Positions 32,667 to 38,930 of a DNA stretch of 64,000 nt are shown here, one piece after another. The first letter of the stretch is position 1. Each line of letters opens with the position of its first letter. The notes beneath the pieces were generated by a model. It made no database searches. It was not told the DNA's origin and saw only the letters and a program-made list of their open reading frames with translations. Position numbers and translations under genes: made by a program. The stretch is from an uncultured Flavobacteriales bacterium (GTDB lineage Bacteria; Bacteroidota; Bacteroidia; Flavobacteriales_D; Crocinitomicaceae): NCBI GenBank assembly GCA_913051935.1, contig CAJXCU010000001.1, forward strand, positions 1 through 64,000, in the 5' to 3' direction.

Positions 32667-33122
32667 CTACAGGTTATTTTCTTTCAGACACTGCAGCGCA
32701 TATTTAATATGTCCGTTAGAATTGATCATTGAGTTGAAAATCCCTATGCATATTCCTTTTTTATTAATCACGAAGGTGACGCGTCCTGGTACCAAGCCAA
32801 ATAAATTTTTTGGGACATGGAATAACTTCCTTAATCTCTCTTTATGATCTGCAATCAAATGGTAATTGAGATTAAACGTATCAGAAAAAGAGCGGTGAGA
32901 TTTTTTTGAGTCTGAAGAAACGCCAATAACTTCACAATCAAATTGCTCAAAATCAGTGTATTTATCTCTAAATACACAGGCCTCTTTTGTACAACCTGGG
33001 GTAAAGTTTTTTGGATAAAAAAAGAAAATAATATTTTTGCTTCCTAAAATCTCTTTAAAAGGTATGGGTTTACCATGCTGATTGTCAAAAGCAATTTCTG
33101 GACATGGATCTCCAATTTTCAT
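32667..33122 (-). CDS. Peroxiredoxin, Bcp/AhpC-TSA family
   Basis: FFYPKNFTPGCTKEACVFRDKY motif. Confidence 0.93.
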   Translation of the reverse strand: MKIGDPCPEIAFDNQHGKPIPFKEILGSKNIIFFFYPKNFTPGCTKEACVFRDKYTDFEQFDCEVIGVSSDSKKSHRSFSDTFNLNYHLIADHKERLRKLFHVPKNLFGLVPGRVTFVINKKGICIGIFNSMINSNGHIKYALQCLKENNL

Positions 33123-34426
33123 AATTTACCGAGCCCTTTTTTAAACCGATGTAGTGCTCTTTCCCTTGCGAACTTGTGTTCGACAATTGGTTCAGGGTAA
33201 CGGTCTGTTCCAAATTCGGGAATCCACTTTTTGATATAGAGAAAATCTTTATCAAATTTTTGTTGCTGTGATGTTGGATTGAAAATTCTAAAATAGGGTG
33301 CAGCATCACAACCACATCCGGCAGCCCATTGCCATCCTCCTGTATTGCTTGCCAATTCAAAATCAAGCAGCTTTTCAGCGAAATAGGCAGCACCAAGTCT
33401 CCAGTCTAATAGTAGGTGTTTCGTAAAAAAGGAAGCCACCACCATACGCACTCGATTGTGCATAAATCCGGTCTCATTTAGCTCTCTCATTCCTGCATCG
33501 ACCATGGGGTATCCTGTTTTACCATGACACCAACGCTCGAAGTTTTCCGTGTTTCTTTCCCATTCAACTAGGTCATATTGCTTTCTGAATGAATTTTCAG
33601 CAGAATGTGGAAAATGATAAATAATCATTTGGTAAAAGTCTCGCCATATTAGCTCATTAAGATAACTTTCGCTAATCTTTAAACTTTTGTTGACTAGTGA
33701 ACGAATGCTAATTGTACCAAACCGTAAATGAACACTTAAACGCGAGGTTCCATTTGTGGCAGGGAAATTCCTTTTTTCTTGGTACTGATTTATGGTTTGC
33801 AGCTCAACTGTTTTTTTTGGGAATTTTATTTGACTTTCGACAAATCCCATCGACTCAAGAGATATTAGCTCCTCAGCTTGTTCAAATTTAAAGAGAGAGG
33901 CTGTATGATCTTCACTTGGATAAGCGGTAATGTAATTTTCATCAAAATAGGTTTTCCATTTTCTAGAATATGGTGTGAAAACAGTGTAGGGCAAACCATC
34001 GGCCTTCAACACCTCTTCTTTTTCAAATACAACGTGGTCCTTGGCACCAATGAATGCAATTCGTTGTTCTTTTAGTTTGGAAAGTAAATAGGCATCTCTT
34101 GACCGAGCGTAAGGTTCGTAATCCCGATTGGTAAAAACTGCATCTATATTATATTTTTTAGCTAATTCTGGGATAAGTTTTTTTGGATCTCCATGCGCAA
34201 CAATAAGGTCTGAATTTAGGCTTTGGTAGACCTCCTTAAGCTTTGTAATTTCCTTGTGTATAAATGAAATACGAGCGTCATTTTTAGGAAGTTTATGAAT
34301 TATGGTGGTATCAAAAATAAAAACCGCCCTGACTTGTTCGGAGTTTATTAAGGCTTTGTACAAACCTGCATTGTCGGCGATACGAATATCTCTTCTGTGC
34401 CAAAATAGTGCATTTTTAAATTCCAT
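33119..34426 (-). CDS. phr: Deoxyribodipyrimidine photolyase (cryptochrome/photolyase family)
   Basis: LFWHRRDIRIADNAGL; GKTGYPMVDAGMREL; TGFMHNRVRMVVASFFTKHLLLDWRLG; NTGGWQWAAGCGCDAAPYFRIFNP. Confidence 0.95.
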   Translation of the reverse strand: MEFKNALFWHRRDIRIADNAGLYKALINSEQVRAVFIFDTTIIHKLPKNDARISFIHKEITKLKEVYQSLNSDLIVAHGDPKKLIPELAKKYNIDAVFTNRDYEPYARSRDAYLLSKLKEQRIAFIGAKDHVVFEKEEVLKADGLPYTVFTPYSRKWKTYFDENYITAYPSEDHTASLFKFEQAEELISLESMGFVESQIKFPKKTVELQTINQYQEKRNFPATNGTSRLSVHLRFGTISIRSLVNKSLKISESYLNELIWRDFYQMIIYHFPHSAENSFRKQYDLVEWERNTENFERWCHGKTGYPMVDAGMRELNETGFMHNRVRMVVASFFTKHLLLDWRLGAAYFAEKLLDFELASNTGGWQWAAGCGCDAAPYFRIFNPTSQQQKFDKDFLYIKKWIPEFGTDRYPEPIVEHKFARERALHRFKKGLGKL

Positions 34427-34429
34427 AAT

Positions 34430-35053
34430 CTACTGTGGTTTGGCGTAATTTAGAGACTTCACCTTCGTGAGTTTGTAGTAATCAGAAAGCCCTGAAATAT
34501 TGAGACTTTTAAGCTCTTGGAAATTAAGACGATAGTTGTTTTCATCTAATGCTTCGGGTATTGAAACTGAGATTACTTTTCCTATAATCAGACGTGTTTT
34601 ATTTGATTTTATCTCAATATCGTCATCAAGCTCAAGCGCAATATGCAGTGGAGATTCTCCCACAAAAGGACATCTCATTTCTTTCTTGTGTATGGCAGTC
34701 AGTCCTACTTTTTTAAACTCATTTTGACCTTTTGAGTATCGTGCCGAGGTTTGGTGCGCTTTCTCAAAGAAGTTTTCGGTAATTAAATTAAAACTGTAAT
34801 GCTTGTATTTTAAAATATTCTGATAGGTATGTCTGTCTACTGTAGTAGGTCTTTGAATAAATCCGAGTAGAGGGGGATTGGCACCGATATGGGTTACTGA
34901 GTTGAAAATAGCTAGATTTTCATCTTCGCCCTGTCCTGAACCAATGAGATAACCCGGTTTTGCACCAGAGAGCGAATTAAAAAAAGCTGTAATTTCTTTA
35001 TTGTCTAAATTTTCAATTACTCCGTCTTTAATGGTCTCTATGGTATAGGTCAT
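34430..35053 (-). CDS. Flavin reductase (DIM6/NTAB) family protein
   Basis: NPPLLGFIQRPTTVDRHTYQNILKYKHYSFNLI; FMN-binding flavin-reductase-like fold signature. Confidence 0.8.
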   Translation of the reverse strand: MTYTIETIKDGVIENLDNKEITAFFNSLSGAKPGYLIGSGQGEDENLAIFNSVTHIGANPPLLGFIQRPTTVDRHTYQNILKYKHYSFNLITENFFEKAHQTSARYSKGQNEFKKVGLTAIHKKEMRCPFVGESPLHIALELDDDIEIKSNKTRLIIGKVISVSIPEALDENNYRLNFQELKSLNISGLSDYYKLTKVKSLNYAKPQ

Positions 35054-35064
35054 TACTCGGTAAT

Positions 35065-35469
35065 TTACGCGCCTTCGTATACTACAAGATTATTTTCAGT
35101 CTCCCATAGCTTAACGGATAGATCAAATTTTGCATCTAGCTTAGCGCGAAGAAGGTTATAACAAACCATACTGATATGCTCTGCGGTCGGAATGAGATTT
35201 TCAAACTCCGGACAGTCAATGTTGAGATTTCTGTGATCGAATCGTTCAATCACCTCCTCTTTGATAATCCCTTTTAAAATTTTGAGGTCTATGACATAAC
35301 CCGTTTCTGGATCAATGGGACCATCAATCCAAACCTCAAGTTTATAATTGTGTCCGTGGAAATTGTAATTGTTACATTTTCCGAAAACTTCATTATTTTT
35401 TTCATCAGACCAATCTGGTCTAAACAATCTGTGTGCAGCATTAAAGTTGGCTTTTCTACAAACTTTCAT
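35065..35469 (-). CDS. 6-pyruvoyl/6-carboxy-tetrahydropterin synthase family (COG0720), PTPS-I-type active-site motif
   Basis: FNAAHRL, GKCNNYNFHGHNY (CxxxxxHGH), ERFDHRNLN, PTAEHIS, LWET. Confidence 0.9.
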   Translation of the reverse strand: MKVCRKANFNAAHRLFRPDWSDEKNNEVFGKCNNYNFHGHNYKLEVWIDGPIDPETGYVIDLKILKGIIKEEVIERFDHRNLNIDCPEFENLIPTAEHISMVCYNLLRAKLDAKFDLSVKLWETENNLVVYEGA

Positions 35470-35987
35470 TATATGTAGGCTTTAAGTTTATTACGATAAT
35501 CTTGAATGATAATCTTGAACCAAAAGGTATAATCATTTGGATTTTTTTTCATGCTTTCCTCAAGGTTTTCAATTGAGACCCATGAAAAAGCCATTGCCTC
35601 ATCCGTATTTATATGCGGGGTGTCATCGGTTACACCTATAAAAACATGGTCTAGCTCGTGTTCGATTAGGCCGTTGTCGAAATCACATTTGTATTGAAAT
35701 TTGAATACAAAATTTAAATCGGCAGACATTCCCATTTCTTCTTGAAGGCGTCTTTTGGCGGCTTCAAACGAATCCTCACCTGGATATGGGTGGCTACAGC
35801 AAGTATTCGTCCACAGTCCAGGTGAATGATATTTGCCTAGTGCCCTCCTTTGAAGCAGTAATTCATTGTTTGAATTTAAAATAAGCACAGATAAAGCCCT
35901 GTGTAATTCACCTTTCTGGTGCGCAAGGATTTTTTCCATGACACCGATTGGATTGTCCTGGTTATCAACTAATTGAACCTCAATCAT
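35469..35987 (-). CDS. idi: Isopentenyl-diphosphate delta-isomerase (type 1)
   Basis: HRALSVLILN, LWTNTCCSHPYPGEDSFEAAKRRLQEEMG, EHELDHVFIG. Confidence 0.95.
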   Translation of the reverse strand: MIEVQLVDNQDNPIGVMEKILAHQKGELHRALSVLILNSNNELLLQRRALGKYHSPGLWTNTCCSHPYPGEDSFEAAKRRLQEEMGMSADLNFVFKFQYKCDFDNGLIEHELDHVFIGVTDDTPHINTDEAMAFSWVSIENLEESMKKNPNDYTFWFKIIIQDYRNKLKAYI

Positions 35988-35988
35988 T

Positions 35989-36825
35989 CTACAAAATGTT
36001 TAGATTATGCCTAACATATGAAGTCACAAGGATTCTTGCTTTTTTCCGATTTGGAATTCGCACCCTTTCTTCAAGAATTCTTTCGGCTTTAGTTCTTTTA
36101 ATTTTCTTGAATAATTTGAAGTAGTACTTATAAGCCATATAAACACCAAAACGCGCCCTTTTCGGCAACATTAAAATACCTTCATATCCAAGTCTAAAAT
36201 CTTTTTCAATATCTGCTTCAATTTCTTTTTTTACAATGTTGTTGAAGTCATTCATATTGATTCCTGGAAAATAAGTTCTACCCAACTCATTGAAGTCATC
36301 ATTTAGATCTCTTAAGAAGTTAATCTTTTGAAACGCCGAACCAAGCTTCATGGCATTCATTTTTAATTTTTGGTATTCACTATCGTCACCGCTAACAAAT
36401 ATTTTTAAGCACATAAGACCGACAACTTCTGCCGAACCTAGGATGTACTTCTCGTAAGTATCCTTATCATAGACCTTTTTATCTAAATCCATTTCCATAG
36501 AATTCATGAACGTTTCAATAAGATCTAACGGTACCTTATATTTGTTTACTGCCCATTGAAAGGAATGCAAAATTGGATTCAATGAGATTCCATTTTCAAT
36601 TGCATCATAAGTGTCTTTTTTAAAATCGGCAAGTAACGTTTCTTTATCGAATCCATCAAATGAGTCTACAATTTCGTCAGCAAAACGAACAAAACCATAA
36701 ATTGAGTAAATTGGTTTATGCAACTCTTTGTTTAGAAAACGAATTCCTAATGAAAAAGAGGTGCTGTAACGACGCGTAGTCATTTTACTCATGTCTTGGC
36801 TTAATTTATCAAAAATTGCTTTCAT
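35989..36825 (-). CDS. crtB: Phytoene synthase (squalene/phytoene synthase family)
   Basis: YSIYGFVRFADEIVDSFD, GSAFQKINFLRDLNDDFNELGRTYFP. Confidence 0.94.
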   Translation of the reverse strand: MKAIFDKLSQDMSKMTTRRYSTSFSLGIRFLNKELHKPIYSIYGFVRFADEIVDSFDGFDKETLLADFKKDTYDAIENGISLNPILHSFQWAVNKYKVPLDLIETFMNSMEMDLDKKVYDKDTYEKYILGSAEVVGLMCLKIFVSGDDSEYQKLKMNAMKLGSAFQKINFLRDLNDDFNELGRTYFPGINMNDFNNIVKKEIEADIEKDFRLGYEGILMLPKRARFGVYMAYKYYFKLFKKIKRTKAERILEERVRIPNRKKARILVTSYVRHNLNIL

Positions 36826-36826
36826 C

Positions 36827-38296
36827 CTATGAATGGTTTTTTAGTACGTATTTTGCAACAACCTCTCCTGAAACGATTGAGGGTGGTACACCCGGTCCCG
36901 GCACCGTCAATTGCCCGGTGTAATAGAAGTTGTCTAAATTTTTATTTCGTAACGACGGCTTTAAGATAGCAGTTTGGCGCAAAGTATTGGCCAAACCATA
37001 TGCATTTCCTTTAAAAGCGTTGTATTCATTTTTAAAATCTTCGATACAAAAACTTTTTTTGTATACAATATTTTCTTTGATATCATTGCCAGTTTTATCC
37101 TTGAAGCGTTGGAGTAAAATATCAAAATATTTTTCTCTTGTCTCCTCGCTATCATTTAAATCTGGTGCAATGGGAATAAGAAAAAATAAATTTTCACTCC
37201 CTTCAGGAGCCACACTGTCGTCTGTTACGGAAGGGGCGCAAACATAAAATAAAGGGGCACTAGGCCATTTTGGGTCCTTATAAATTTCTATTCCATGTTG
37301 CTCAAGGGATTCATCGAAAAAGAGATTATGATGTTGTATATTCTTCAGCTTTTTGTTAACCCCTACATAAAATAAAAGGCAAGAAGGGGCCATAACTCTT
37401 TTATCCCAATACTTTTTTGAGTAATTAGCATGACCATTAAGTAACTTTCTATCTGTGTGATGGTAGTCAGCACCTGATATAACAATGTCCGCAGTGTATT
37501 CTTTTTTATTTGTTACTACAGTTTTAACTTCTCGGTTTACTTTGTTGAATGAAATTACTTCTTCATCAGTTATAAACTTAACATTATTCTCTATAGATAT
37601 TTTTTCAAAGGCCTCAATAAATTTGTGCATTCCGCCTTTCGGATACCATGTTCCTAGCTTAATATCAGCATAATTCATGAGTGAGTAAAGAGCTGGAGTC
37701 TCATTGGGCATTGCTCCCAAAAACAGAACTGGAAATTCTAATAAACCGATTATTTTTTCATTGGAAAAGTAGTTGCGTATAAATTTTCCGAAAGAAGAAA
37801 ACAGATTCATGCTCAATAGACCTTTCAGCACTTTCGCATTGGCAAATTCTAAAACGCTCATGCTTGGCTTGTAGACCAAATCTTGCATACCTACTTGGTA
37901 TTTCACTTCAGCATCTTTCAGAAATGATCTTAATTTTACAGCACTACCCTTTTCATTGTCTTCAAACCACTGCTCGAGTGCCTTCATATCGGCAGGCACA
38001 TCAGTGTAAGAATTATCTTTCCAGTAAACTCGGTAGGAAGGATCTAGCCTTTCGAGGGAGTAAAAATCACTTGTAGTGTGGTTAAATTTTTTGTAAAAAT
38101 CTTCAAATACATCAGGCATCCAATACCAACTTGGGCCCATATCAAAGGTAAAGCCGTCAATTTCAAACTTTCTAGCACGGCCGCCAATCTGTTTATTTTT
38201 CTCAATTATCGTTACGTCATGGCCTTCTTTGGAAAGAAACGAGGCTGCCGACATACTAGAAATTCCAGAACCAATAACGATAATCTTTAGAGACAT
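36827..38296 (-). CDS. crtI: Phytoene desaturase (CrtI family)
   Basis: IIVIGSGISSMSAASFLSKEGHDVTIIEKN, GPSWYWMPDVFEDFY, FYYTGQLTVPGPGVPPSIVSGEVVA. Confidence 0.95.
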   Translation of the reverse strand: MSLKIIVIGSGISSMSAASFLSKEGHDVTIIEKNKQIGGRARKFEIDGFTFDMGPSWYWMPDVFEDFYKKFNHTTSDFYSLERLDPSYRVYWKDNSYTDVPADMKALEQWFEDNEKGSAVKLRSFLKDAEVKYQVGMQDLVYKPSMSVLEFANAKVLKGLLSMNLFSSFGKFIRNYFSNEKIIGLLEFPVLFLGAMPNETPALYSLMNYADIKLGTWYPKGGMHKFIEAFEKISIENNVKFITDEEVISFNKVNREVKTVVTNKKEYTADIVISGADYHHTDRKLLNGHANYSKKYWDKRVMAPSCLLFYVGVNKKLKNIQHHNLFFDESLEQHGIEIYKDPKWPSAPLFYVCAPSVTDDSVAPEGSENLFFLIPIAPDLNDSEETREKYFDILLQRFKDKTGNDIKENIVYKKSFCIEDFKNEYNAFKGNAYGLANTLRQTAILKPSLRNKNLDNFYYTGQLTVPGPGVPPSIVSGEVVAKYVLKNHS

Positions 38297-38299
38297 GTT

Positions 38300-38812
38300 T
38301 TAGTTTAATGTGTAAGCGTAATCTGGCAGTAAATCTATTAATTTTTTTCGTGCTATAAAGATTCTGCTTTTAACCGTACCTATAGGAATATCCAATTGGT
38401 CTGCAATCTCTTTGTACTTAAAACCTTTAAAATGTAAAATAAAAGGGTCTTTGTATTCATCGCTGAGGCTATCAATTTTTTCTTCAATGTCCTTTGTAGC
38501 AATTTGCGAAACCGGTGTTTGCTCGTGACCTTTACTGTTGGTAATTAAATATAGTTCCTTAGAATTATCAAAAATGGTACCTGATTTTACTTTTCTTCGA
38601 TATTGGTTGATGAAAATATTTCTCATTATAGTAAAAACCCATGCCTTAAAATTGGTCTGCGGCGTGTAATAGGTTTTGTAATTAATGGCCTTCAACATGG
38701 TGTCTTGCGTTAGGTCTTTAGCATCCTCCATATTTCTTGTAAAACCGAGGGCAAAAGATTTAAGATTACTCTCAATATCCATTAATGCTTCATTGAATTC
38801 GATGGTCGACAT
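38300..38812 (-). CDS. ECF-type RNA polymerase sigma factor heading the carotenoid/photolyase operon
   Basis: Sigma region 2 (DAKDLTQDTMLKAINYKTYYTPQTNFKAWVFTIMRNIFINQYRR) and region 4 (FILHFKGFKYKEIADQLDIPIGTVKSRIFIARKKL); stop is 3 nt from the crtI start. Confidence 0.93.
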   Translation of the reverse strand: MSTIEFNEALMDIESNLKSFALGFTRNMEDAKDLTQDTMLKAINYKTYYTPQTNFKAWVFTIMRNIFINQYRRKVKSGTIFDNSKELYLITNSKGHEQTPVSQIATKDIEEKIDSLSDEYKDPFILHFKGFKYKEIADQLDIPIGTVKSRIFIARKKLIDLLPDYAYTLN

Positions 38813-38815
38813 AAT

Positions 38816-38890
38816 ATTTTGTTTAATGTTTACGGTGTAAATGTAAACAAAAAATGTTTAACAAAACAAGTAAAACATTAAACAAAATTA
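38816..38890 (-). promoter_or_regulatory. Putative operator/promoter of the ECF sigma-crt-phr operon: array of TGTTTAM half-sites bounded by a perfect 16-nt inverted repeat
   Basis: ATTTTGTTTAATGTTT (38816-38831) is the exact reverse complement of AAACATTAAACAAAAT (38873-38888). Further half-sites: TGTTTAC 38827-38833, GTAAACA 38843-38849, TGTTTAA 38855-38861. Minus-strand -7-like box TAATTTTG at 38890-38883. Confidence 0.65.
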
Positions 38891-38930
38891 CATTTCAAAG
38901 GTGTTTTTGTCTCTACGATCCCCGTATTTA

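Follow-up and report, generated by a model that had tools for sequence, protein, structure and literature searches.

Paired inverted dyads at a flavobacterial ECF-carotenoid-photolyase promoter as a predicted operator of a CarH-type repressor

Which regulator acts at the dense array of TGTTTAA-like half-sites in front of a carotenoid and photolyase operon of an uncultured Flavobacteriales bacterium, and to which signal might it respond? The operon is encoded on the minus strand of the window, i.e., the whole 64,000-nt stretch of DNA that was analysed. The genes of the operon are listed here with the basis of each assignment:

38300..38812, minus strand: ECF sigma factor, the operon's first gene (Sigma70_r2, Sigma70_r4_2)
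36827..38296, minus strand: crtI-like phytoene desaturase (amine oxidoreductase family and gene context)
35989..36825, minus strand: crtB phytoene synthase (SQS_PSY)
35469..35987, minus strand: NUDIX protein, probable isopentenyl diphosphate isomerase (NUDIX; the isomerase reading is from context)
35065..35469, minus strand: 6-pyruvoyl tetrahydropterin synthase family protein (PTPS)
34430..35053, minus strand: flavin reductase-like protein (Flavin_Reduct)
33119..34426, minus strand: DNA photolyase (DNA_photolyase, FAD_binding_7)

The edge of the array lies 3 nt from the ECF start codon, and the following elements were distinguished within it:

38820..38849, no strand: dyad 2 (TGTTTAA-N16-GTAAACA), the one closer to the ECF start; predicted to be a CarH-type operator that covers the -7 box and putative start site
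38855..38884, no strand: dyad 1, TGTTTAA-N16-TTAAACA; second predicted operator unit, 5 bp from dyad 2
38816..38831, no strand: left arm of a perfect 16-nt inverted repeat, comprising the outermost half-site and its flanks
38873..38888, no strand: right arm of this repeat, the exact reverse complement of the left arm
38838..38845, minus strand: predicted Bacteroidetes-type -7 box TACATTTA (consensus TAnnTTTG), inside dyad 2

An earlier note on this DNA had described the array as a set of half-sites bounded by the 16-nt inverted repeat. The arms at 38816-38831 and 38873-38888 are indeed exact reverse complements, and all the half-sites it listed were found again at their positions. The grouping has to be drawn differently, as conservation picks out two TGTTTAA-N16-TTAAACA dyads and not the 16-nt repeat. 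Each dyad spans 30 bp, and together they overlie the ECF-crtI-crtB-photolyase operon's promoter. The 7-bp tandem pairs TGTTTAA/TGTTTAC and TAAAACA/TTAAACA, which the note had also pointed out, are present here but only partly conserved in relatives, and so the 16-nt arms, taken over their whole length, are likewise only partly conserved. In the window's species the match between the flanks extends further than the conserved half-sites.

The array region is rich in A+T (≈75%) and carries long inverted repeats, which lends some weight to the idea that the repeats arose by chance from base composition or form an RNA structure, such as a hairpin in the leader of the operon's mRNA. Composition does not reproduce the pattern. 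When the 118-bp intergenic region was shuffled 1000 times with its dinucleotides preserved, no shuffle gave an inverted repeat as long as 16 nt and none contained two dyads (TGTTTAA-N16/17-TTAAACA, ≤1 mismatch), while 8 contained one dyad; permuted half-sites fail in the same way, as described below. Exact TGTTTA-N18-TAAACA occurs at only two sites in the organism's own 2.36-Mb assembly, and these are the two dyads described here, 35 bp apart. As for a hairpin, the half-sites do not covary but stay invariant, transcription from a start site immediately downstream of the -7 box would not include dyad 1, and no Rfam family was matched in the window. Chance and RNA structure are both disfavoured, and we regard them as extremely improbable.

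Conservation was assessed in 76 promoters of orthologous ECF genes from relatives, with ECF protein identities down to ≈66%. Dyad 2 is kept at the same place in all 76 (N16 or N17, at most 1-2 mismatches). The dyad pair is found in 71 of them with a gap of 4-5 bp, the second dyad having N17 in 17 of these 71, and the remaining five have dyad 2 only. Across the 76 promoters the TGTTTAA/TTAAACA columns are near invariant, while the spacers vary, as does the distance to the ATG. A separate set of twenty promoters from genomes of the genus, partly overlapping the set of 76, showed two dyads in 18 cases and one in 2. The dyad was also present with ≤1 mismatch in all 16 ECF promoters from 16 genomes of seven other Flavobacteriales families, for which permuted half-sites gave a best score of 0. 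The compared loci have common ancestry, so these counts, including those for rhodopsin promoters given below, are not independent events.

A different element was seen in five promoters (L095, L098, L100, L103, and L105), where dyad 2 is kept and TTGGCAY-N5/7-TGT replaces dyad 1 at ≈50 nt before the ECF start. This element is similar to a sigma-54 site, though its spacing is one base short of the consensus.

The position of dyad 2 suggests how the array may act. The motif TAnnTTT[GA] occurs at a fixed position within dyad 2 in 65 of the 76 promoters, and in the window it corresponds to TACATTTA. The overlap between operator and promoter boxes of carotenoid genes that is typical of CarH operators is thus seen here too. 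The -7-like box noted earlier, TAATTTTG at 38885-38892, consists mostly of the conserved outer half-site flank ATTTTG; it is not conserved as a box and was rejected in favour of the one in dyad 2. The assignment of a -33 box is uncertain. Dyad 2 would be expected to cover the -7 box and the putative start site, as for a repressor site.

A candidate for the repressor comes from gene linkage in the other families. A gene for a CarH-like MerR protein of ≈290 aa directly adjoins the ECF gene in 13 of the 16 genomes and lies one gene away in a fourteenth. The CarH-like proteins of the relatives combine a MerR helix-turn-helix with helical and Rossmann B12-binding domains: MerR_1 and B12-binding_2 score above the Pfam cut-off, and B12-binding (PF02310) is weak and mostly below it. 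The closest full-length solved structure is that of Thermus CarH, a light-dependent regulator (5c8d, 3whp). Residues W149, E159, H160, and H198 are invariant in all 14 aligned CarH-like proteins (alignment A1) and align with W131, E141, H142, and H177, the cofactor positions of Thermus CarH whose roles are known (PMC11796333). Since a cobalamin adenosyltransferase and B12-binding enzymes are also encoded, a B12 cofactor is plausible.

Within the window's genus, nearly all genomes encode a CarH-like protein, unlinked to the ECF operon. In the sister genome G020 carH lies between engB and leuS. Alignment of the window's assembly with this region showed that contigs C38 and C99 end on either side of it and that part of leuS is missing as well. 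Because the contigs end around the place of carH, its absence from the window's MAG is best read as an assembly gap, and loss of the regulator in this organism was rejected on the same grounds. The single MerR protein of the assembly (112 aa) was rejected as the regulator as it has no B12 domain; similar short MerR matches also occur in many genomes with a separate CarH-like gene. The proposal of the earlier note that a MerR regulator of the CarA/CarH/LitR type is encoded elsewhere agrees with these gene positions on both counts, and the predicted kind of regulator is well supported by the sequence comparisons.

Two observations fit less well. Both dyads are present in G004, a genome that is 93% complete and in which carH was not detected, and in the window's genus the carH promoter has no dyad. 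Both count against a CarH-type operator and would favour some other regulator on the dyads, for instance the ECF sigma factor regulating its own gene or some light or stress regulator. The dyad does precede the regulator's own gene (merR) in some families. Among the f13 g15 genomes searched, no close ECF ortholog was found, yet dyads are still there, in front of merR and crtI. The linkage between dyad and CarH-like gene also recurs in several families, the half-sites fit the TnnACA motif, and a palindromic repeat is not the layout of an ECF promoter. We consider control by such another regulator very unlikely.

The carH promoters of the window's genus have a conserved element of their own in place of the dyad, AACAA-N13-TTGTT, 46-49 nt upstream of carH (L182-L190).

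Known CarH operators consist of 11-bp direct repeats containing TnnACA (PMC9304148). The conserved half-sites of the array contain TAAACA and so hold this contact motif, but the promoter logos show no conserved series of 11-bp direct repeats. The half-sites are instead inverted, with N16 or N17 between them and one or two dyads per promoter, a geometry which counts against the CarH-type operator. Because the contact motif is there and the direct repeats are not, we describe the array as one that would work like a CarH operator and do not file it as a standard one.

The likeness to the B12-dependent CarH/LitR photoreceptor-repressors of Thermus thermophilus, Bacillus megaterium, and Myxococcus lies in the MerR helix-turn-helix with two B12-binding domains and the W/EH/H cofactor residues, in the TnnACA half-site, and in an operator that overlaps promoter elements of carotenoid genes. 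The differences are the tandem 11-bp direct repeats there against inverted N16-17 dyads here, a predicted target set that here includes rhodopsin, FAS1, folE, and dxs genes, and a carH gene that is unlinked in the window's genus. The CarA operator of Myxococcus xanthus is similar to the array in its length of ≈55 bp and in its initial description as a pair of inverted repeats to which two dimers bind (PMC9304148). It was later read as direct repeats, whereas here the inverted dyads are themselves conserved over several families. In Streptomyces, the CarH/LitR gene of the LitR/LitS system reportedly adjoins the gene of an ECF sigma factor that acts on carotenoid genes, a pairing similar to the one described above. 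The ECF gene here, in contrast, heads the crt-photolyase operon, and the regulator gene lies elsewhere in the window's genus.

A CarH-like protein might also bind the dyads with no B12 or light switch, responding to redox state, a partner protein, or a metabolite in the manner of CarA, or acting as a classical MerR activator. CarA of M. xanthus is such a B12-independent relative (PMC9304148), and the inverted geometry is nearer to classical MerR sites. That W, EH, and H at the cofactor positions do not vary among the 14 aligned proteins argues for a retained switch, as do the light-related targets (rhodopsin, carotenoid, photolyase). MerR activators moreover need a 19-20 bp spacer between the promoter boxes (PMC5045206), and the site here overlaps the -7 box rather than such a spacer. 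A protein that binds the dyads in this switchless way appears unlikely.

The earlier note had considered the array as an operator of the carotenoid operon; the set of promoters with dyads is wider and includes those of rhodopsin and other genes. A dyad (≤2 mismatches, within 200 bp upstream) was found at 42 of 51 rhodopsin genes, compared to 1.1 expected by shuffling. At ≤1 mismatch, 36 of the 51 had a dyad, whereas no permuted half-site exceeded 3, and enrichment was confined to spacers of 16-17. In the window's own genome, CGTTTAA-N17-TTAAACA ends a few nt before the ATG of the rhodopsin gene. Further recurrent targets, noted case by case and in some lineages, are carH, crtI, FAS1, folE, dxs, an SDR gene, and TonB receptors. 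In most individual genomes of the window's genus, genome-wide counts at 1 mismatch showed no enrichment of the dyad relative to the reversed pattern, and the regulon claim therefore rests on the promoter-by-promoter tests. On these, the dyad is predicted to mark a B12/light regulon that would include the rhodopsin gene and a FAS1 gene of the window's genome.

Secreted FAS1 (fasciclin) genes have a dyad just upstream of the start, in the organism's own genome (L213, 3043-3072; G000:C15:41942) and recurrently in relatives (L214-L216, L219, L223, L236, L241, and L242). Two genes for TonB-dependent receptors (L227 and L230), which could be a route for uptake of B12 or something else, are preceded by a perfect dyad, 4 nt before the start. 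Among the rhodopsin loci L245, L250, L262, L265, L270, and L273 of relatives, most leaders contain the Rfam cis-regulatory RNA DUF805b (RF02914), and that of L273 contains DUF805 (RF03081). These RNAs lie between the dyad and the rhodopsin start, and may constitute a second layer of control on rhodopsin.

The dyads, their conservation, the linkage to CarH genes elsewhere, the CarH residues, and the motif shared with rhodopsin promoters together lead us to read the array as the operator of a CarH-type (MerR helix-turn-helix plus B12-binding domains), dark-acting photoreceptor-repressor, with a probability of roughly 0.78. In darkness, the protein with AdoCbl bound would occupy both TGTTTAA-N16-TTAAACA dyads, covering the -7 box and start site at dyad 2 and the upstream promoter region at dyad 1, and RNA polymerase would be blocked. 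Cleavage of the Co-C bond by light would release the protein, so that the ECF sigma factor and the carotenoid, pterin, and photolyase genes would be turned on. We infer binding, stoichiometry, dark repression, and light release, and take light as the likely signal from the regulator's family and its targets.

One flavobacterial paper states that more work is needed on how proteorhodopsin expression is regulated (PMC3587595). Carotenoids of flavobacteria can be light-induced (PMC7064467), and flavobacterial MerR genes beside crt genes have been mentioned, as candidates only (PMC4732338, PMC11855829). We found no report of the dyad operator in the open-licence papers searched, and the inverted dyad geometry for CarH is without description in the literature found. 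For structural studies, the dyads would add a second geometry of CarH operators.

Much of the light response in many related aquatic bacteria is probably under the control of a single switch. The broader proposal, which we hold to be slightly favoured by the evidence, is that throughout the Flavobacteriales one CarH-type B12 photoreceptor-repressor has direct control, through inverted TGTTTAA-N16/17-TTAAACA dyads, of proteorhodopsin, carotenoid, photolyase, pterin, and isoprenoid-precursor genes. If true, phototrophy and photoprotection would be under one common light/B12 switch. An operator common to rhodopsin and carotenoid genes, with a likely receptor, would make proteorhodopsin regulation directly testable, and these aquatic bacteria are predicted to depend on their vitamin B12 supply for their responses to light.
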